From Psychrobacter sp. Pi2-52 (GTDB lineage: Bacteria > Pseudomonadota > Gammaproteobacteria > Pseudomonadales > Moraxellaceae): a stretch of DNA of 64,000 bases. Each line of letters opens with the position of its first letter. Position 1 is the first letter of the stretch. Where the stretch lies: positions 1-64,000 of the forward strand of contig NZ_CAJHBS010000019.1 in assembly GCF_904846705.1 (NCBI RefSeq), given 5' to 3'. The notes beneath the pieces were generated by a model that was not told the DNA's origin, searched no databases, and was given only the letters and a program-made list of their open reading frames with translations. Position numbers and translations under genes: made by a program. This document shows positions 1 through 9,701 of this stretch, in pieces.

Positions 1-301
1 TATTAATATAGATGCTAATTCCCTACTAGCTTATGTAATATTACGTAATTGTTTCGATACATCCTGTATATTCTTGTATTAACCCTTAGTCATTTATCTA
101 TTTTAAGGGTTAATAACCGATAAATTCGCTTACATTGTCATCAAAAGTTACAAATTCAAAGTTATTTTTAATTTTAAAGTCGCAATAGCTAATGAATTTT
201 TTGATGAAGAATCATTTTATAAGCAATAGAACAGTCTTATACCTACCTCATTTACTTTTAACGCTAACACTATAATCAAAGTATTCTTAACTGCTAACAC
301 A
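1..301. other. Intergenic, AT-rich, with one hairpin
   Basis: No coding sequence is supported here. The only structure I see is an inverted repeat with 10-bp arms at 79-88 and 104-113 (TTAACCCTTA and TAAGGGTTAA) around a 15-nt loop. It lies downstream of the minus-strand DUF411 gene, but no clear T-tract follows on that strand, so a terminator role is uncertain. Confidence 0.4.
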
Positions 302-946
302 CTATAATTGCTGCTCTACCGATTCAATATCAGCATAAACTTGGGTTGTCCCGTCTTTATTGAGCTGCATAACCTGATAGGGCATGAATTTATTTTGATA
401 CTCCATACCTGGGCTACCAATAGGCATGCCAGGTACGGCAAGACCCATAGCTTGTACTGGCGGATTTTCTAAAAACTGCGCCATATATTTAGCGGGTACA
501 TGACCTTCAAAGACGTAACCATCCGTAGTGACTACAGTATGGCAAGAACGCATTTCATTTGGAACGCTGTAGCGCTCTTTAAATACGGCTAAGTCCGCAA
601 CATCTTGCGCGGTTGCACTTAGACCATTATCTTCTGCATGACTTATCCATTCTTTACAGCAGCCGCAATTGGCATCTTTATAGACAGTGGCTGATACGTT
701 TTTTAGTAAGTCTGGTTTACTTACTGATGTCATCATAGAATTATTTATAACGTTTGGTTCAGCTGTCTTTGGAACAGCCAAAACATCTTCAGTTGATGCC
801 GATGTTGTGCTTGCATCAGATACGCCACTACTCGGTTGGCTACAAGCAAATAGTGATGAGGCAGCCAGTAATAATAACGTACTACGCAACCCCTTAGACA
901 GATAACGATTGCATATAAGACTGGATTTTATTTTTAAGGGGGGCAT
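302..946 (-). CDS. DUF411 family metal-binding lipoprotein
   Basis: A 214-residue exported protein. The N-terminus has basic residues, a hydrophobic stretch near residues 22-34 and a lipobox ending LFAC-S, so it should be lipid-modified and anchored in the envelope. Residues 40-80 are a Ser/Thr-rich linker. The rest matches the DUF411 (CopG-like) family: a Cys cluster CGCC within a KDANCGCCKEW stretch near residue 95, followed by a conserved SCHT Cys/His site near residue 134 and GHVPA. In the family these residues are thought to bind copper or another soft metal. The gene stands alone and diverges from lnt across about 240 bp. The metal specificity is inference. Confidence 0.8.
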   Translation of the reverse strand: MPPLKIKSSLICNRYLSKGLRSTLLLLAASSLFACSQPSSGVSDASTTSASTEDVLAVPKTAEPNVINNSMMTSVSKPDLLKNVSATVYKDANCGCCKEWISHAEDNGLSATAQDVADLAVFKERYSVPNEMRSCHTVVTTDGYVFEGHVPAKYMAQFLENPPVQAMGLAVPGMPIGSPGMEYQNKFMPYQVMQLNKDGTTQVYADIESVEQQL

Positions 947-1185
947 AGTGCTTTCTCATGTACTGTAGGTATTGTGAGCTATAGAAGATCAAGTAACACT
1001 TCATATCGTTTGGTAATGTAGCATAATAACCCATTAAACGGAGTACATAAATTCATCCATTGAGCAGTGCAGGCTGGTATCATAAGCAGTTTTTATTTTA
1101 AAATACTGCCTGTAGTATTAACGGCTCTATCTAAGTTTTGGATTTTGATTAAAAATTCAAGGCTCATAATTTTGGATAATTTGCG

Positions 1186-2754
1186 ATGCGCCTGTCTACT
1201 ATTAATCTACAAAAGCGTTTGAGTACTCACTTAAATCAATTACCGCTATCGCTTACGCTAGTAGCAGCATGGCTTGCAGGAGCTATTTTTTTATTTTCGC
1301 TAGCGCCTTATGGGTTTTGGCCGCTAGCAATAGTATCACCAGCGATTTTATATGCGCTGTTGGTGACAAGTATGAGTGGTCGTCGCGCTTTTATTATCGG
1401 TGAAGCTTACGGTATGGGGCTATGGTGCGTCGGCGGCTTTTGGCTCTATACTGCTATCCATGATTATAGCGATACACCAACGTGGCTCGCATTGATTATG
1501 ATTGCATTGATGGGTCTCGGTATGGGACTATTTCATGGATTGTTAGCACTAGTCTTTAACCGTATGGTAGGCAAACAACCCTTTTCATTTGCTGCTCTTT
1601 GGGTGCTACAAGAATGGTTAAAAACTTGGTTATTCACAGGCTTTCCGTGGCTGTTTGTTGGTTATGCATTTACTGAAGAGTATTGGTTATCGTCCTTAGC
1701 ACCCGTTGCTGGTGTTTTTTCCGTCTCTTTTGTTGCCATACTATTGGCTGCAAGTTTAGTAGAGCTACTGCTTCGGCGCAGTAGTTATGCCATCGTTTCT
1801 GTACTGTTATTAGCCATTAGCACATCATTATGGCTGGTCAATCCGCAATGGACAAAACCTAAGGGCACACCTGATCTGTCAGTGTCATTGATTCAAGGTA
1901 ATATTTCACAAGATATAAAGTGGCTGACTAAGTATCAAGTAGAAACGCTAAAGATTTATGCGAAGTTAACACGCACTGAGTGGGGACGTGATGTTGTGGT
2001 GTGGCCTGAATCATCTATTCCTATGTTTCAGGATGAGGCTGCGGGCTTTATTAGTGAAATGATAGAAATGGCTAATGCGACCAATACGACATGGATAACT
2101 GGTATCCCTTATAAGGATAAAGCGGCATTCAATGCCAGTACGGATAAGTATCCCCCATTTTACAATAGCGTGATTGCTCGAGGTGTAGAAGCGGAAGGCC
2201 TATACAAGAAGCAGCGTCTAGTGCCTTTTGGAGAGTATATTCCATTTGAAGGCGTGCTCGATATTTTCCCAAGTTTGGCCGGTAGTCAGGATATTAAGAA
2301 CTATAGTCGTGGTAGTGATCAGCAGTCACCTCTAAAGGTGCGTGGACACAATATAGGGACGGCTATCTGTTATGAGGTAGCTTATCCAGATACCACGCGT
2401 AAAAATGCCATCGATACTGAATTTTTGTTGACCGTCTCTAACGATGCCTGGTTTGGCACTTCAGCAGGACCATTGCAACATTTGCAAATGGTACAAATGC
2501 GCGCGCTTGAGAACGGGCGCTGGTTTATTCGAGCGACCAATACTGGTGTTACCGCTATCATTAACCATAAAGGTCGTATTGTAAAACGCGCACCGCAGTT
2601 TGAGCGTACTGTACTACGTGGTGAGATACAGGCACGGGTTGGTAACACGCCCTTTATGCTTATGGGAAATTATCCTATCTTGATAATAATAACCTTGTTA
2701 TTACTACTAAGCTATTTTGGCAAAGGTCTAACCACACTTAGAAGACGAGGGTAA
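1186..2754 (+). CDS. lnt: Apolipoprotein N-acyltransferase
   Basis: A 522-residue integral membrane enzyme that transfers the third acyl chain to the N-terminal Cys of apolipoproteins on the periplasmic face of the inner membrane. The first 220 residues are a run of hydrophobic segments and the remainder is a nitrilase-fold domain. The expected catalytic Glu (VVWPESS), Lys (YKKQRLVPFGEY) and Cys (GTAICYEVAYPD) are all present, and a final hydrophobic segment lies near the C-terminus. Length is normal for the family. The usual neighbour corC/ybeX is not present upstream. IS3 copy 1 begins 94 bp after the stop, so the original downstream context has been lost. Confidence 0.95.
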   Translation: MRLSTINLQKRLSTHLNQLPLSLTLVAAWLAGAIFLFSLAPYGFWPLAIVSPAILYALLVTSMSGRRAFIIGEAYGMGLWCVGGFWLYTAIHDYSDTPTWLALIMIALMGLGMGLFHGLLALVFNRMVGKQPFSFAALWVLQEWLKTWLFTGFPWLFVGYAFTEEYWLSSLAPVAGVFSVSFVAILLAASLVELLLRRSSYAIVSVLLLAISTSLWLVNPQWTKPKGTPDLSVSLIQGNISQDIKWLTKYQVETLKIYAKLTRTEWGRDVVVWPESSIPMFQDEAAGFISEMIEMANATNTTWITGIPYKDKAAFNASTDKYPPFYNSVIARGVEAEGLYKKQRLVPFGEYIPFEGVLDIFPSLAGSQDIKNYSRGSDQQSPLKVRGHNIGTAICYEVAYPDTTRKNAIDTEFLLTVSNDAWFGTSAGPLQHLQMVQMRALENGRWFIRATNTGVTAIINHKGRIVKRAPQFERTVLRGEIQARVGNTPFMLMGNYPILIIITLLLLLSYFGKGLTTLRRRG

Positions 2755-2894
2755 TAGTAAACTTAATCATAATAATTTAATCAGTGTAAGTTTTTTATTT
2801 TTTCTAGGTAACGTCCTAACGCACGTAAATATAAAAGTTTTAAACTATTGACCCCTGCCGTCAAATCCGTATACATAAACTTGGGAGATTTTAA

Positions 2895-3857
2895 TTACGC
2901 AGCCTGACGATAATAATCAAACCACACCTGTCTTGGCGATTGATAGCCCAAACCCTTTTGAATCCTCGTCTGATTGTAGTACAGCTCGATATAACTGATA
3001 ATATCATTGATGGCTGTGAACCTTGTTTTATAGTCTTGATGATATACCAGCTCATTCTTTAATGTGCCCCAGAAGCTTTCTATCGGAGCGTTATCGAAAC
3101 AGTTGCCTTTGCCGCTCATTGAGCCTATAAATTGATGCTGCTTAATGGTCTTGTGGTAGGCGTGACTGCAATACTGACTGCCTCTGTCTGAATGAACGAT
3201 TAGCCCTTTGCTTGGACGTTTATTCTTGATGGCCATATTTAGTGCTTTGCAAACTAAATCTGCGGTCATACGCTTGTTAATAGCGTAACCGACAAGCTCT
3301 TTGGTGTATAAGTCTTTGACCCCTGCTAAGTACAGCCAACCCTCATTCGTCCAGATATAGGTGATGTCGCTGACCCACGACTCGTTAGGGCGCTTAGCAT
3401 CAAACTTCTGATCCAGTACGTTTGGATAGACCAGCTTGTTGTGATTGGAGTCGGTGGTGACTTTAAAGCGCTTATGACGACGACATTTAATGCCGTGTTG
3501 CTCTTTGATGCTTCTTACCATATACAGGCTAATGTTATGGCCTTGCTCGCTTAGATGAGCATGCAGTCGATCTGCGCCATAACGTTCTTTCGTTTCATTG
3601 TGAGCCGCTTTAACCAGTAATTCAGACTGGTTGCGATGTATCTGTTGGTCGCTGAGATCACGACTTAGCCAGTCGTAATAGCTTGATGGCTTAACCCTTA
3701 ACACACGGCACATAGTGGTGATGCGAAAGAGGAACTGGTTGTCTTTGATAAAGGCGTACCTGACTAGCTGTTTCTCGCGAAGTACGCCGTCGCCAACTCG
3801 AGCATAGCTCTCCCCTTGCGTCGGGGCGAAGCAGTGCTTCGCTTTATCCCTCCTCAT
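2895..3857 (-). CDS. IS3-family transposase OrfB (copy 1)
   Basis: A DDE-type integrase-core transposase subunit. The HTH_21-like N-terminal part is followed by the rve core, with the catalytic Asp in WVSDITYIW, the second Asp in VHSDRGSQY and the Glu in PIESFWGTLKNE. The C-terminus (QTRIQKGLGYQSPRQVW) is typical of the family. The first ~27 residues of this reading frame come from the extra 59-bp segment and are absent from copy 2, so the native protein normally starts near KQLVRYAFIKDN as part of an OrfAB fusion. Whether this copy is translated alone from the overlapping ATG is uncertain. Confidence 0.85.
   Translation of the reverse strand: MRRDKAKHCFAPTQGESYARVGDGVLREKQLVRYAFIKDNQFLFRITTMCRVLRVKPSSYYDWLSRDLSDQQIHRNQSELLVKAAHNETKERYGADRLHAHLSEQGHNISLYMVRSIKEQHGIKCRRHKRFKVTTDSNHNKLVYPNVLDQKFDAKRPNESWVSDITYIWTNEGWLYLAGVKDLYTKELVGYAINKRMTADLVCKALNMAIKNKRPSKGLIVHSDRGSQYCSHAYHKTIKQHQFIGSMSGKGNCFDNAPIESFWGTLKNELVYHQDYKTRFTAINDIISYIELYYNQTRIQKGLGYQSPRQVWFDYYRQAA
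3795..3854. repeat. 59-bp palindromic insert in the IS frameshift region
   Basis: Alignment with copy 2 shows that copy 1 has about 59 extra bases here, at the orfA/orfB junction. The segment contains a perfect palindrome GCGAAGCAGTGCTTCGC and a second inverted pair CCCC/GGGG. The A6G slippery run of copy 2 (CTAAAAAAGG on the minus strand, near 6880) reads CTAAATGAGG in copy 1, so programmed frameshifting should be lost. Confidence 0.6.
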
Positions 3858-4119
3858 TTAGTATTTCGCGTTCCTCTTCAGCCACTTTGAGCTGCCGCTT
3901 GAGCTGCTTTATTTCTTGAAGAGCACTCATAAGATCAGGATCGTATTGCTTTGTGCCGACAAGCTTGCCTTGATTGGCTTTGTTATGCCAATTTGATAGC
4001 GTTTGCATGGCAATGCCAAGCTGCTTTGCAGTGGCTGAGATATTGCCATTATTGTCTGATATCTTCTTGACGGCCTCGGCTTTAAATTCGTCACTGTAGG
4101 TTCTTACTTTCTTGGTCAT
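3844..4119 (-). CDS. IS3-family transposase OrfA (copy 1)
   Basis: A 91-residue helix-turn-helix protein (HTH_Tnp_1 family) that recognises the IS ends. The HTH lies around residues 10-45 (TYSDEFKAEAVKK, then SATAKQLGIAMQTLSNW) and is followed by a short leucine-zipper-like helix. The C-terminus ends EILNEEG instead of the DILKKATAYFAKHS of copy 2, because the frame runs into the extra palindromic segment. It overlaps orfB in another frame. Confidence 0.85.
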   Translation of the reverse strand: MTKKVRTYSDEFKAEAVKKISDNNGNISATAKQLGIAMQTLSNWHNKANQGKLVGTKQYDPDLMSALQEIKQLKRQLKVAEEEREILNEEG

Positions 4120-4192
4120 GGTAAACTCCTGTCAATACGCTTAGTTTACCAAGTTTATCTCTACGGTTTCTTCAGCATAGCTCACAATAGGT

Positions 4193-5779
4193 TTGCATTT
4201 AGGCAAGATACAAAGATTTATTGATACAGCATCTGTTTTAAATCAAAGTAATTTTTGGTGTAACATGCAACCTTCAAAAGAATTTTCAAGCAAACTAAGA
4301 AAGACTAGAAAATCTTTCCCTGAGACTTCTCAAAGTCTTCAAACCATGATCATTCCTTCACGTATTTATCAGAACCTGCTAAAAGATACCATTGAAAGTT
4401 TGCAGGTTTTTAATAAGCACGCTGAGCAGATCTCATATGTTTTTTCTGCACGTACTAAAGTAAGAGATGAAGCATTAAGATTAGATCAGAGTGTACCTAT
4501 GAGTAAGCTTACTAAATCACAAAAAAGCTTAATCAGATTTTATTGGCAAACTGCTTTGAAGACAGATACAAAGCTAACTAAGATTTTAGCAGAATTAACA
4601 GATTTAAACATCATCAAGAATGCTAATTGGTTAAGTTTAACAATCAGCTTAGGTCAAATACAGATGAAAAGCGCTTTTGTTATAGCTGCGTTTACAGGTA
4701 TGCGTAAAAATGAATTACTATCTATCCCTTTCAACGGGCTAAGACATATTCATTCCGATACTGGGAATATACCTGTAGTATGGTCAACTACAACAAAATT
4801 GGAAAGTAATGGAGTACCAAGATTTACAAAATGGGTAACAGGTTCAATTGTTGAAGAAGCTTTTGAAGCAGCTAAATTTATCACTCAAGGAGCTTTGAAC
4901 TGGTCTGCTAATAAGAGTCAGGTGGCAGAAGATGAGAGTAAGTTACCGTTGTTTTTTTCAATTGAAAATGGGAAATCTGGAAAGCCTCATCCGCATTTTG
5001 ATTATGCAACAACTGCCTTAAATAGCAACCTCATTCAAAAAATAATGTCATCAGAGCACTTATTAATTTCAGAACAAGACTTAAAGGAAGTCAGTCAATT
5101 TTTATACGGCGATGAAATATCTAATAATATTAAATTAGGTAAGCCTTGGCCTTTAGGCTTTCATCAGTTTAGACGCTCCTTAGCCGTGTATGCTGCTTCT
5201 AGTGGTTATGTTTCATATCCTACTCTTAAATCCCAGCTAAAACATATAAGCATGATGATGACAGTCTATTACACGGACTCAAACTCTAGAGCGATAAATA
5301 TTTTAGGCAACGGCCCTGAAGTCAAAGCTATGCAAAAGGAATGGCAGGAGGCCCAAGCAAGAGTAGAGTCAGATAATTTGCATGAATTGTTAGATAGCAG
5401 GGTGACACTAACTGGTGCAGCTGGTAAAAATCTACAAAAAAGAAAAGTAGAGAATAAGCTTCCTAAGTTCTTAGATAATAGAAATAGTACTAAGAAAGCA
5501 GTCAAAAATGGCAAAATTCGTTATCGATCTACTTTAGTTGGCGGATGTATGTCTATTAAACCTTGTGATAAAGGTGCTGGTGTATTGGCATCTGCTTGTA
5601 TTAGCTGTGAAAATGCGGTGTTTTCACCAGAATCCAAAAGTATTTTGCTACAAACTAAAGATTTTTATAAGTCTCAACTCACTTTAGATATTCCAAAGCG
5701 TGTTCATCATGAATACGAAGTGAGTATTAAAAAAATAGACAGTCTTCTTTCAGTATTAGAAGTAAATCAAGAGAAATAA
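4193..5779 (+). CDS. Tyrosine recombinase, N-terminally truncated
   Basis: A 528-residue remnant of a large site-specific tyrosine recombinase. The catalytic features are visible: the first Arg in FTGMRKNELLSIP, an H-x-x-R-type box in GFHQFRRSLAVYA, and His plus the nucleophilic Tyr in LKHISMMMTVYYTD. After the catalytic domain comes a Cys-rich segment (GGCMSIKPC then CISCENAVF) that could bind zinc, as in the long recombinases of GIST/Tn554-like three-gene units. The open frame runs back to the IS right end at 4184 and only a TTG is available as start, so the true N-terminus was removed by the IS. It is followed one base later by a small helper gene. AT-rich composition marks it as foreign. 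Confidence 0.8.
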   Translation: MHLGKIQRFIDTASVLNQSNFWCNMQPSKEFSSKLRKTRKSFPETSQSLQTMIIPSRIYQNLLKDTIESLQVFNKHAEQISYVFSARTKVRDEALRLDQSVPMSKLTKSQKSLIRFYWQTALKTDTKLTKILAELTDLNIIKNANWLSLTISLGQIQMKSAFVIAAFTGMRKNELLSIPFNGLRHIHSDTGNIPVVWSTTTKLESNGVPRFTKWVTGSIVEEAFEAAKFITQGALNWSANKSQVAEDESKLPLFFSIENGKSGKPHPHFDYATTALNSNLIQKIMSSEHLLISEQDLKEVSQFLYGDEISNNIKLGKPWPLGFHQFRRSLAVYAASSGYVSYPTLKSQLKHISMMMTVYYTDSNSRAINILGNGPEVKAMQKEWQEAQARVESDNLHELLDSRVTLTGAAGKNLQKRKVENKLPKFLDNRNSTKKAVKNGKIRYRSTLVGGCMSIKPCDKGAGVLASACISCENAVFSPESKSILLQTKDFYKSQLTLDIPKRVHHEYEVSIKKIDSLLSVLEVNQEK

Positions 5780-5972
5780 CATGAAAACTAGCCAGGCAGA
5801 ACAGGCTTATTGGGATGCTTTGAATCGTCTACAAGATGGTACAGCCAAAATTGTCAATACAAAGTCATCACGGTTTAAGTTTACTAGAGACGCTGTAGGT
5901 AGAGAGGCAGGTAAAGGAAAAGGGTATGACCTATGCTGTCAAATCTGTAGACATTGACTTGGGAGATTTTAG

Positions 5973-6845
5973 TTACGCAGCCTGACGATAAAAGTCAAAC
6001 CATACCTGTCTTGGCGTTTTATAGCCTAAACCCTTTTGGATTCTAGTCTGGTTGTACTCAAGCTCAATATATTTAGTGATATCACTGATGGCTTCAAACC
6101 TTGTTTTATAGTCTTCGTGATACACCAACTCATTCTTTAATATGCCCCAGAAGCTTTCTATGGGCGCATTATCAAAGCAATTGCCACGCCTGGACATTGA
6201 GCCCTTAAATTTATGCTTCTTAATGATCTTATGATAGTCATAACTACAGTACTGACTGCCTCTATCAGAATGCACAATCAGCTGTTGGTTGGGTCGTTTG
6301 TTCTTGATGGCCATATTGAGTGCACGGCAAACTAAATCTGCTGTCATTCGCTTATTGATGGCATAGCCGACAAGCTCTTTGGTGTAGAGGTCTTTAACAC
6401 CTGCTAAGTATAGCCAACCCTCATTGGTCCAGACATAGGTAATGTCACTAACCCAAGCTTCGTTAGGACGACTGGTATGGAATTTTTGGTCGAGCAGGTT
6501 TGGATAGATAAACTTGTTATGGTTTGAGTTGGTGGTAACTTTAAAACGCTTGTGACGACGGCAAGCAATGCCGTATTCTTCTTTAATGCGTCTTACCATG
6601 TATTGACTGATATGATGGCCTTGCTCTGCAAGATGAGCATGCAATCGCTCACAGCCATAACGCTGCTTAGTTTCATCATGAGCCACGCGCACTAGCAGCT
6701 CACACTGGTTGCGGTGGATCTGCTGATTACTAACACCACGATTTATCCAGTTGTAATAGCTTGATGGCTTGACATCTAATACGTGACACATACAGGTGAT
6801 GCTAAATATCTTCTGATTATCCTTGATAAAGACGTACTTCATCAA
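5973..6845 (-). CDS. IS3-family transposase OrfB (copy 2)
   Basis: A 290-residue DDE transposase subunit whose catalytic residues appear in WVSDITYVW, VHSDRGSQY and PIESFWGILKNE. It closely resembles copy 1 but shows many substitutions, so the two are related isoforms and not a recent duplication of each other. In the family the functional transposase is an OrfAB fusion made by a -1 frameshift. The frame overlaps orfA by a few bases, and the slippery run lies just upstream. Confidence 0.92.
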   Translation of the reverse strand: MMKYVFIKDNQKIFSITCMCHVLDVKPSSYYNWINRGVSNQQIHRNQCELLVRVAHDETKQRYGCERLHAHLAEQGHHISQYMVRRIKEEYGIACRRHKRFKVTTNSNHNKFIYPNLLDQKFHTSRPNEAWVSDITYVWTNEGWLYLAGVKDLYTKELVGYAINKRMTADLVCRALNMAIKNKRPNQQLIVHSDRGSQYCSYDYHKIIKKHKFKGSMSRRGNCFDNAPIESFWGILKNELVYHEDYKTRFEAISDITKYIELEYNQTRIQKGLGYKTPRQVWFDFYRQAA

Positions 6846-7138
6846 CTGTGTTTCGCGAAGTACGCCGTGGCCTTTTTTAGAATATCTCGCTCTTCCTGAG
6901 CAACTTTTAGATCACGTTTAAGACGTTTATTCTCTTCTAGTATAGCCATGAGCTCAGGATCATATTCTTTAGTACCGATCAGCTTGCCTTTATCAGCTTT
7001 GTTTTGCCAGTTAGATAATGTCTGCATGGCGATGCCAAGCTGCTTTGCAGTCGCTGAAACATTGCCATTATTATCTGCTATCTTTTTAACAGCTTCAGCT
7101 TTGAATGCTGCACTATAGGTTCTGATTTTCTTAGTCAT
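6842..7138 (-). CDS. IS3-family transposase OrfA (copy 2)
   Basis: A 98-residue helix-turn-helix protein. The DNA-binding part covers about residues 8-45 (KAEAVKKIADNNGNVSATAK, then QLGIAMQTLSNWQNKA), followed by a leucine-rich helix and the family-typical end DILKKATAYFAKHS. It binds the IS ends and supplies the N-terminal half of the OrfAB fusion. It starts about 65 bp inside the right end of the IS. Confidence 0.92.
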   Translation of the reverse strand: MTKKIRTYSAAFKAEAVKKIADNNGNVSATAKQLGIAMQTLSNWQNKADKGKLIGTKEYDPELMAILEENKRLKRDLKVAQEERDILKKATAYFAKHS

Positions 7139-7584
7139 GATAAACTCCTCATTGAGTCGTTAGTTTACCAAGTTTGGTTCTACAGTTTTTTCAGCATAGC
7201 TCAGGTATGTCCGTAATGAGAGATATCCAGAACTTTGCGAAGCAATAACAAAAGCGGAAGAAGAACGCAAAAATCGTGCTCAAGAAAAACCTAATACTTC
7301 TACTAAGTTAAAACATGAAAAAGAGCTCAAAATCAAAGCTAATTTGAAATACGACATGATAAAAGAAGAATATGACATTATAATGCAAGATTATCTTAAC
7401 ATTCTAAGACAGAATTTTGAACTTCAAAGAGAGTTAGCAGATTCTCCACATATAAGATTAGTGAAAAGATCTAATAAATAGCTTAATCTTGTTCCTGTTT
7501 AGCTCAAATACAATCTATGAATAAAGCCTCTCTAAAGCTTTATTTCTCATATTACGGCTATTAAGATGCCTTAAAAGTATTCCT

Positions 7585-8082
7585 ATGAATGACGATCATT
7601 TGTGTAACAAACTAAAAATTTTATTTGAACATCTTTTTCCTACTCTAACCATAATTGGTGGAGTAGATGAACCCTACTATGAAGCGCCAAAAGCAGATAC
7701 AAATGCGAAGATCTTTTTTAAAGAAAACTACCCAAGAAGCCTATTACATGAAATTGCTCATTACTGTTTGGCAGGGCAAAAACGACGCAAATTAGATGAC
7801 TATGGTTACTGGTATACTGAATGTGGTAGAACAAGTGAAGAGCAAGAGCTATTTCAATTGGTTGAAGCAAGACCTCAAGGCTTAGAAAAGGCTATGTGTG
7901 AAGCTATAGGTATACATTTTTCACCTAGCTTTGATGATTTTTCAGGTCGACCGATATCAGAGGTGTTTCTAAAAAACTTAGAAGTTAATTATCAAGAGAT
8001 GATTACGAATCCTCCTCCTACGGCTAGAATAGCTTTAGAAACATTAATGCATACAGATTTTTCTACGTTAAGGGATAATTAG
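7585..8082 (+). CDS. epmC: Elongation factor P hydroxylase, element-borne copy
   Basis: A 165-residue EpmC/YfcM homologue; in E. coli this enzyme hydroxylates the modified Lys of EF-P. Key features are the metal-site motif HEIAHYC, then RRKLDDYGYWY, and a conserved EEQELFQLVEARPQ segment. The gene looks complete. Its base composition is AT-rich like the adjacent recombinase remnant and unlike the downstream fragment of a second epmC (8489-8848). I read it as cargo of the mobile element that replaces the interrupted resident gene. No strong Shine-Dalgarno is visible before the ATG, so an alternative start is possible. Confidence 0.85.
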   Translation: MNDDHLCNKLKILFEHLFPTLTIIGGVDEPYYEAPKADTNAKIFFKENYPRSLLHEIAHYCLAGQKRRKLDDYGYWYTECGRTSEEQELFQLVEARPQGLEKAMCEAIGIHFSPSFDDFSGRPISEVFLKNLEVNYQEMITNPPPTARIALETLMHTDFSTLRDN

Positions 8083-8488
8083 TTTATTAACTACATATTG
8101 CAAATTCATACTTACTTAATTTTAAAATTTCAAAGCAGTCATGTGAAGTATATTCATCAGGCTACTATTCAGCCGATGATAACTATAGTAAATATTCTAG
8201 CCTTCCCAATTTTATTGAAAAAACAAAGAATATCTACTAAGAGAAGAACCAACAAAAAGTCCCGATCTATTCATCAAAAATAAAATATTGATATGTCTCG
8301 ATTGTATATACACGGCTAATATAAGCTTCTTAGTGCTTTGAAAAGTGATAATTCCAATGACTCACTTAATGTACAATATCTCCTTTTATGAGGAATATTG
8401 TACATTTTTTTATCAAGAAGCTGATTTTACATCATTACAATTACTTCTTTATCAATCAATAACTTAGTAATGTACATTTATAGTTAAG
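8083..8488. other. AT-rich end of the mobile element
   Basis: There is no convincing gene. A hairpin terminator occurs at 8369-8412, and a copy of its core AATGTACA (as the palindrome AATGTACATT) recurs at 8469-8478, about 10-20 bp before homology to the resident epmC begins. This is where the right boundary of the element should lie. Confidence 0.5.
8369..8412 (+). terminator. Hairpin with T-tract
   Basis: Arms AATGTACAATAT (8369-8380) and ATATTGTACATT (8396-8407) form a 12-bp stem that continues into a run of T on the plus strand. This fits a rho-independent terminator for the element side, downstream of the cargo epmC. The AT-rich stem makes it weaker than usual. Confidence 0.55.
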
Positions 8489-8848
8489 AGTTTACTAGAA
8501 ATCAGTCATTGGTGTGTAGCTGGTGACACTCGTAGACAACTATCTGACTTTGGCTACTGGTATGCTCCAGATGGACGATCAGCGGCGCAGCAGCAGGCAT
8601 TTGAGCGTGTAGAAATCAAACCTCAAGCATTAGAGTGTTTGTTCACCTTGGCGTGTGGACGAAATTTCCAAGTCTCACAAGATAACTTGTGTGCCGACTT
8701 CGATACTAGTAGTAGCACCTTTGCTATTGATGTCTATCAGCAAGTCCAAAGCTATATAGCCAAACCTCATACTCTGCCGCGTGACGCTAAGACTTTACTG
8801 ACTGCGTTACTTAGCGCTTGCACTTCTTCATCTGAGATCAGCGCTTAG
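8489..8848 (+). pseudogene. epmC: Resident epmC, 5'-truncated fragment
   Basis: The frame starting SLLEISHWCVAGDTRRQLSD and continuing FGYWYAPDGRSAAQQQAFER aligns with the second half of EpmC and ends at a normal stop (8846-8848). The N-terminal third is missing. In-frame stops lie just upstream at 8468-8470 and there is no good start codon. The first His of the metal-site motif (LLHEIAH in the element copy) is absent (LLEISH), so the break falls exactly within the active-site codons. Composition resembles the chromosome. I interpret it as the original epmC decapitated by element insertion, with its 5' end lost at the other, IS-rearranged side. Confidence 0.8.
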
Positions 8849-9080: not shown

Positions 9081-9701
9081 ATGGAAGTCTTCTATATTCA
9101 TCCCGATAATCCGCAGCCACGTCTCATTGAGCAAGCCGCTGACCTATTGCGCAGAGATCAGTTAATTATTTACCCAACTGATACCAGTTACGCTTTTGGT
9201 TGCCGTTTGGGAGCAAAGGATGCCCTAGCTAAACTCAAGCAAATCCGTGAACTCGATGATAAGCATCAATTTACCTTACTGTGCCGCGACCTAAGCGAAA
9301 TTGCCAATTATGCAACAGTTGATAATGTGCAATTTAAACAGCTGAAAGCCCACACCCCTGCCCCAATTACTTTTATTCTTAATGCCACCAAAGACGTACC
9401 AAAAAAACTGGCGCATGCAAAGAAAAAAACCATTGGTATTCGTGTACCTAGTAACCCCATTGCTCAAGCATTATTAGAAGCGATGGATGAACCTATTTTA
9501 ACCAGCTCACTGATTTTGCCCAATCAAGACGATATTTTGGATGACCCATTTGAGATTGAAGACTTACTAGGCAACCAAATCGATGGACTGATCAATGCAG
9601 GTATAAAGACGACCAAGCTTACTACTATCGTAGATATGACTAGCAGCGTTCCTGAAGTTATCAGACAAGGTGCGGCCAATGTCGATTCGTTATTACTCTA
9701 A
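9081..9701 (+). CDS. YciO/Sua5-YrdC family protein
   Basis: A 206-residue single-domain protein of the YrdC fold. The ATP/threonine-binding landmarks are IIYPTDTSYAFGC near residue 30, the LKQIRELD KxR-like region, FTLLCRDLSEIANYA, PAPITFIL and IGIRVPSNPIAQALLEA. YrdC/Sua5 proteins make threonylcarbamoyl-AMP for tRNA t6A; the YciO subgroup, which this most resembles by length and the HPDNPQPRLIEQA start, has no settled role. A good Shine-Dalgarno (AGGAACC) precedes the ATG. It is followed by a bidirectional terminator shared with rplQ. Confidence 0.85.
   Translation: MEVFYIHPDNPQPRLIEQAADLLRRDQLIIYPTDTSYAFGCRLGAKDALAKLKQIRELDDKHQFTLLCRDLSEIANYATVDNVQFKQLKAHTPAPITFILNATKDVPKKLAHAKKKTIGIRVPSNPIAQALLEAMDEPILTSSLILPNQDDILDDPFEIEDLLGNQIDGLINAGIKTTKLTTIVDMTSSVPEVIRQGAANVDSLLL

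Follow-up and report, generated by a model that had tools for sequence, protein, structure and literature searches.

Why does a bacterial chromosome hold two sequences of epmC, the gene of the EF-P hydroxylase, one directly behind the other, the first complete and the second lacking its beginning? The pair lies in the window analysed here, which comprises the first 64,000 of the 66,328 bases of contig C19 of a Psychrobacter genome (3.25 Mb in 69 contigs; G000 in our survey). Both sequences are matched by PF04315. The first (7585-8082, forward strand; 3.5e-32, 111.8 bits) is intact, starts with an ATG at 7585 and encodes the motif LLHEIAH. The second (matched at 8489-8848, 2.7e-41) reads LLEISH, without the first His of HExxH; its frame is open from 8471, and no in-frame ATG, GTG or TTG stands ahead of this motif in the fragment. 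The GC content of the first copy (35.3%) is close to that of a recombinase gene remnant upstream (34.6%), and that of the second (46.7%) is closer to the rest of the chromosome (42.8% for positions 9000-64000). Downstream follows tsaC (9081-9701, forward strand; TIGR00057, 6.8e-55), which adjoins epmC also in the island-free loci that we used for a TsaC tree. The host genome further encodes EpmA and an EF-P with a PGKG loop. An initial annotation of this DNA had read the locus as a mobile element that targets and destroys epmC and supplies a substitute; its description of a complete, AT-rich first copy and of a second copy reduced to a 3′ part of chromosomal composition is borne out by these data.

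What the resident gene lacks at its 5′ end was found on another contig, at C24:33385-33525 (model positions 1-49), where it is fused to the left end of an element: the reading frame runs to LHEI and then enters foreign sequence and a stop. The element sequence starts at C24:33526, and its right part occupies positions 1-8497 of the window. It is thus spread over separate contigs (C24 and C19), and its left end (motif C) is absent within the window. The right end (motif C′, 8471-8497, forward strand), found in 12 Psychrobacter right junctions, runs from TGTACAT to AGAGTTTACTA, which stops at 8497; the genome G001 has the variant TGAGTTTACTA, and the loci L073 and L074 a diverged form. Next comes the 6-bp spacer GAAATC (8498-8503, forward strand; by junction comparison), the Glu-Ile codons of HExxH, and only then the 3′ part of the resident gene (8504-8848, forward strand), a pseudogene fragment that has lost the His of the first metal ligand. 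The earlier proposal that the second copy begins exactly in the active-site codons can be refined: the loss of the first His stands, but positions 8489-8497 still belong to the element and the resident sequence resumes at 8504.

The intact site reads ..TTACAT-GAAATC-AGTCATTGG, encoding H-E-I-S-H-W, the left junction ..TTACAT-GAAATC-CACACATCTCC and the right junction ..GAGTTTACTA-GAAATC-AGTCATTGG. Together, these three sequences place the crossover on the 6 bp that form the E-x codons of the HExxH metal motif. The insertion site was identical in all 14 elements of which both ends were read, with the split attB kept in attL and attR around the 6-bp spacer, and the recurrence of the same junction in 14 elements excludes chance. 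The site is not the best-conserved DNA of epmC, a candidate explanation that we rejected since it ranked 135 of 339. Resident loci encode SHW in 78 of 85 cases and SHF in the other seven; no insertion was read in an SHF-type gene, which gives little support either way to a protection of SHF hosts, as 78 of the 85 loci are SHW anyway. The right ends in G044, G001, L073 and L074 provide the 3′ epmC fragment with an in-frame ATG, and those of the group of G000 do not.

Comparison with 100 genomes of the genus, this one included, revealed what the uninterrupted gene looks like. In 83 of them epmC is in one piece, with a frame that is open throughout in 82 and closes early in G058. A three-piece arrangement (5′ piece covering model positions 1-49, element epmC, 3′ piece) was found in 11 genomes (G000, G001, G026, G028, G036, G044, G047, G050, G063, G071 and G081). 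G068 has an element epmC; its left epmC piece lies at the end of a contig, and only the left end of the element could be read. G031 displayed a left epmC piece with the left end of the element, on a contig that ends 3.7 kb further on in a genome that is 89% complete; neither IntB nor an element-type EpmC was found in it, and it was left out of the count of read elements. The gene is frameshifted in G062 and G076. The former, an island-free draft, lacks 2 bp of its resident epmC where target arm and spacer meet (about 3810-3830 of L048), which is possibly an excision scar and possibly a sequencing error; excision of GInts is reported to leave deletions of 2 or 6 nt. The annotation's expectation that relatives free of the insert would have an intact epmC at this place, of which the 5′ part is missing from the window, was thus confirmed.

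The recombinase remnant that had been noticed upstream of epmC belongs to a real element, as proposed; it turned out to be the third gene of a four-gene operon, and the element to be a whole island. In relatives, the operon consists of intA (475-489 aa), tfp (655-679 aa), intB (679-699 aa) and srap (139-142 aa), followed by epmC, and this core is intact and in the same orientation in G028, G044, G001, L073 and L074. IntA and IntB display the R-H-R-H-Y residues of tyrosine recombinases (IntA of five elements by alignment; IntB of G028 by pattern, with the residues invariant in a 6-row alignment), including the motifs TGMR, HQFRR and LKH..YY in G028 IntB. Neither the R nor the H-x-x-R pattern occurs in the four Tfp proteins inspected. 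Pfam agrees with this catalytic assignment for G044, and NCBIfam gave no names above cut-offs for the proteins of the recombination operon. A four-gene operon on a Vibrio plasmid encodes similar IntA (27.7%) and IntB (28.5%) proteins. The sequences show that the insertion, between H and xH of the motif H-[E-x]-x-H, leaves the resident gene for the EF-P hydroxylase as two nonfunctional halves. From the gene set and the junctions we infer that the tyrosine recombinases carry it out by a 6-bp crossover.

The copy in the window has decayed. Its intB (4193-5779, forward strand; model positions 137-679) retains the C-terminal three quarters of the large tyrosine recombinase, with about 137 N-terminal residues missing and 99.9% DNA identity to the intact 679-aa gene of G028. 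It is abutted by an IS3-family insertion sequence with two ORFs (2895-4119, reverse strand; NF033516, 1.4e-98 for the larger ORF), whose homology to the G028 copy extends to 4188. A second IS3-family copy (5932-7203, reverse strand; NF033516, 2.5e-97) splits srap into a 5′ part (5781-5931, forward strand), which has an intact 139-aa relative in G028, and a 3′ part (7204-7481, forward strand; by comparison with G028). This second insert is absent from the srap position in G028, G071, G081, G047, G063 and G050. With intB truncated at one IS3 copy and srap split by another, the element of the window is probably immobile. Despite these decayed recombination genes, its carried epmC displays no difference from that of G028.

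Outside the conserved core, the islands are large and their cargo varies. The outer epmC pieces are about 33 kb apart in G028, 42 kb in G071, 70 kb in G081, 18 kb in G044 and G001, 21 kb in L074, 12 kb in L073 and 19 kb in G567, so that the insert measures about 12-70 kb in the eight relatives measured and is not a short one. By eye, G044 carries type III restriction-modification-like genes, G001 an ATPase and type I-like genes, and G028 metal-related genes. In the latter, the cargo lies between attL and intA and the operon at the right of the island; a second left end, which would account for cargo on this side of intA, was not found inside it at up to 7 mismatches in 30. Positions 1-2988 of the window are 99% identical to DNA between attL and attR of the complete genome G028. 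They include a second copy of lnt (1186-2754, forward strand; apolipoprotein N-acyltransferase, TIGR00546, 3.5e-94), which has 81% identity to the other lnt of the genome on contig C18. The G028 island has this gene as well, and the portion of the G081 island that was read contains its 3′ part.

An IntB alignment search retrieved close relatives from 13 of 299 genomes of the family, all of this genus (11 full-length, the truncated protein of G000 and one in two pieces in G050), and all 13 also have an element-type EpmC; the remaining 22 matches were distant, with at most 211 bits. In a sample of 369 genomes of the class, IntB matched this genome and one distant protein. Two peptide patterns retrieved 16 loci from a collection of species genomes: ten of Psychrobacter, which appear to correspond to genomes of our survey, L073 of an uncultured gammaproteobacterium, L074 of Photobacterium ganghwense and four distant ones of Acinetobacter. 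Both L073 and L074 have a split epmC and a complete epmC behind srap, with no further epmC match in either genome; they are such elements in epmC of other species as the annotation had proposed to search for. In all 15 elements of which the core was found (13 from Psychrobacter, one from Photobacterium and one from the uncultured gammaproteobacterium), epmC lies next to srap and the element is inserted in epmC. The proposal that the element targets epmC, destroys it and carries a candidate substitute is supported by this constancy, by the single insertion point and by the empty sites. No IntB relatives were found in viral contigs. Among plasmid and phage records, tblastn gave no relative of the carried epmC over 60% identity; epmC matches occurred in 26 plasmid records (34-44% identity among the 25 listed) and in two phage records (41.8%).

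In the TsaC tree, which lacks G036, G567 and G068, the ten island hosts fell into several places: one grouped with three island-free genomes (98/88), one with twelve (100/98) and seven with eight (97/89), and G071 stood outside all three clades. The simple reading of this tree is that of separate insertions into hosts of different clades, and loss of the island by excision may be another source of the pattern.

The spacers at the two ends of the islands provided a clue to their movement. They are unlike in 11 of the 14 elements (9 of 12 from Psychrobacter and, by eye, both of the others), as expected from recombination with mismatched spacers, which suggests that the elements bring along six bases from their former site. 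For SEs (strand-biased circularizing integrative elements), the published rule is that the 6 bp of attL come from the target and those of attR from the donor (PMC10214605). Compared with the nearest island-free relatives, the spacer is host-like on the left in G047 and G071 and host-like on the right in G028, G081 and G036, and it is polymorphic among close relatives. Inverted repeats around the spacer, which in SEs are imperfect and 13-19 bp long, exceeded shuffled sequences in two of four elements: 10 of 19 positions matched in G044 and in the gammaproteobacterial MAG (shuffle fractions 0.014 and 0.011), 7 of 19 in G000 and 6 of 19 in Photobacterium (0.271 and 0.348). An assignment to the SEs is less clear on these points: the footprint rule is not clearly followed, with relatives pointing both ways, the inverted repeats stand out in two of four elements, and the cargo of G028 between attL and intA, with the operon at the right, departs from the layout of SEs, whose operon is usually at the left end.

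These islands resemble several systems of which descriptions have been published, and the comparisons below hold for the portions of those papers cited. The closest are the bcp-targeting SEs of Vibrio (SE-6283-like), which insert in bcp and carry a bcp homologue (PMC9345347). They share with the epmC elements the order intA-CDS2(tfp)-intB-CDS4(srap), the 6-bp crossover, one conserved target gene and a carried homologue; the epmC elements differ in having epmC as both target and substitute, in the cut within active-site codons, in their hosts and in forming islands of about 12-70 kb (PMC9345347). In Pseudomonas putida KT2440, an island splits tmk and carries the dNMPK PP_1964 (PMC10653934). Here too a housekeeping gene is split and a distant functional analogue carried, and strains with the substitute only resemble two genomes discussed below (G013 and G020); but the tmk target is essential, its substitute was shown by genetics and belongs to another gene family, and its recombination genes are described as encoding a TetR regulator and an unknown protein besides two tyrosine recombinases (PMC10653934). 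Tn552-II likewise combines a recombinase triplet (tnpABC) with a homologue of the disrupted gene, the target-gene-like tgl, for which its authors suggest a rescue mechanism, and brings the donor spacer at its right end. It differs in a 7-bp spacer, in its host Staphylococcus and in a TnpABC that its authors liken to Tn554 (PMC12486829), which, as far as the cited text goes, has no counterpart of tfp (PMC10214605). GInts (ginABCD) have three recombinase-like genes and a small gene, a 6-nt staggered exchange and variable cargo, and the cited portion describes no carried target homologue; membership in the GInts was ruled out, since the non-catalytic protein is second in our operon and third in theirs (PMC5385486). 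We found no paper in the open-licence literature that reports epmC or yfcM as the target of a genomic island or integrase. The epmC element clade is, within that literature, new, and that an SE can carry its target gene has already been published for bcp (PMC9345347, cited portion).

The carried EpmC itself is far removed from the resident protein, with about 36% identity between them. In the EpmC tree, the element proteins group in one clade with support of 100/100, and a branch of 2.85 separates them from the 39 other EpmC rows; the tree lacks the class locus L205, which did not fit the search pattern, and its rows for L219 and YfcM are partial. That clade also holds two proteins outside any recognisable island, those of G013 (L133:4304-4993) and G020 (L134:4115-4642). 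In both genomes, the element-type gene occupies the resident locus, between a DUF177-like gene (named by eye) and tsaC, and no other epmC was found. The stretch read around it held no recombination genes, and no close element end motifs stood beside it; one weak match, with 3 mismatches in 16, lay away from epmC. These features would fit islands that have decayed to the substitute alone in G013 and G020. They would also fit the opposite direction of transfer, in which this EpmC type is native to lineages such as G013 and G020 and was captured from them by the elements, and the tsaC rows of both genomes branch early, with long branches that make their placement unsure. We consider such a native source unlikely. 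The element-type EpmC occurs in only 15 of 299 family genomes, the 13 element hosts and these two (next score 107 bits), and in one of 369 genomes of the class sample, while the other sampled members have the resident type where an EpmC was found; moreover, G013 and G020 share a single clade with the elements, with no resolved order inside it.

If islands can decay to this gene, what does its product do? The metal ligands of YfcM are His59, His63 and Glu98 (PMC4231759, cited portion). By alignment, H55, H59 and E94 of the carried EpmC correspond to them and are invariant in element EpmC, and an acidic residue is kept at the position of YfcM D105. An AlphaFold2 model of the carried protein (pLDDT 81.8) was used in a fold search, in which YfcM was the sole significant match (4pdn, E 1.2e-5, TM 0.59/0.70, rmsd 5.8); by sequence and fold, 3wtr and 4pdn are matched. 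The carried epmC is, judging by dN/dS values of 0.07-0.22 (computed for pairs that have finite dS and at least 4 nonsynonymous changes; most pairs have a saturated dS), under purifying selection. A complete, highly diverged epmC with all three metal ligands stands directly behind the recombination operon, and most likely takes over EF-P hydroxylation. Another role is conceivable, such as a changed substrate or a function in the element's own life, with the homology to the target a relic of acquisition. The long branch and low identity would be compatible with a changed substrate, a Tyr stands behind the second His in the aligned element EpmC sequences where resident loci have Trp (78 of 85) or Phe (7 of 85), and the loop at residues 65-78 of the model is of low confidence. 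We regard this other role as rather improbable, given the conserved ligands and acidic residue, the exclusive fold match, the purifying selection and the fact that G013 and G020 have this gene as their only epmC, at the resident locus.

A third explanation would make epmC ordinary cargo that hitchhikes after a chance recombination with a host copy, with no selection for replacement. The islands do carry many other genes, among them the restriction-modification-like genes and the second lnt; the constancy of epmC beside srap in 15 of 15 elements while the cargo differs, and the agreement of the IntB tree with that of the element EpmC wherever they are resolved, make this explanation very unlikely. 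An ancient tandem duplication with later decay of one copy, as the tandem order in the window might suggest, can be dismissed as having a negligible chance, because the resident 5′ part lies on another contig at the left end of the element, epmC is a single piece in 83 of 100 genus genomes, the two types form separate deep clades, and none of these 100 genomes showed the arrangement named beforehand as its hallmark, an uninterrupted locus with both copies in this order.

Collectively, we consider it very probable that an SE-type element, with epmC as its only observed target, splits epmC and carries a substitute. At the level of the sequences compared, an epmC-specific element of SE type that splits epmC and carries another is shown; a working replacement, self-protection and dependence of the host are steps we infer from them. 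With the carried gene as a substitute, insertion would come at little cost to the host, and a cell that lost the island would have no enzyme. The carried copy encodes AHY or SHY where the resident gene has SHW, so that the right half of the site is altered in protein and DNA, which might shield the carried epmC from the element's own recombinase.

We also looked for similar pairs of target and homologue in more distant SEs, by comparing the ORFs of each locus among themselves; both positive controls recovered the epmC pair. The 13 distant SE loci came from 12 genomes; 12 of the loci belong to a second genus of the family, probably Acinetobacter, and the remaining one to a different family. In six of the 13, involving three genes, a gene is split or truncated and a homologue of it is carried: L260 (G620), L267 (G534), L270 (G652), L271 (G626), L268 (G592) and L269 (G551). 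In G620, an S-formylglutathione hydrolase gene is split within its nucleophile motif GHS|MGGHG and a complete copy lies inside the element; TIGR02821 matched the two halves and one complete gene in this genome, and one or more complete genes in each of seven other genomes. Three loci have a pilin gene that breaks off just before LMIVVAIIGILAA, with a complete pilin gene between srap and that junction. This case is weaker: the 20 kb read did not contain the left pilin piece, and an extra pilin-like gene past the junction in L271 means that adjacent pilin genes are nothing unusual there. Two loci have a gene that is interrupted after HEL, and a HEMxH homologue stands behind srap; only the left target piece was seen, and no Pfam family was found for this gene pair. 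The other seven loci displayed no such pair (L263 and L264 had other repeats only), and the genes hit in them include one for a Band-7 protein, one for a flotillin-like protein and one for a ParA-like protein. The last of these (L261:4336-4959, in G527) is cut by an SE-like insertion beside its Walker A codons, and no substitute was found within 20 kb.

From these cases, a wider reading can be put forward tentatively, and we hold it to be possible rather than probable: many SE clades may each replace one conserved gene, often cut in the codons of a catalytic motif, with a recoded, recombination-proof substitute near srap, and the islands may decay to the substitute alone. As part of this reading, a copy-out element would never restore its target, and the substitute would thus repay the host and at the same time make it dependent on the island.

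What had been a remark on bcp in a single SE paper becomes a testable rule with these findings: target and substitute are paired at epmC in separate Psychrobacter clades and two other lineages, and similar pairs occur at three further genes in distant SEs. If the wider reading is true, SEs would be a source of the displacement of core-metabolism genes by distant homologues. If the carried EpmC works, mobile elements would swap an enzyme that modifies a translation factor, which would be a route by which conserved genes are replaced by distant homologues.
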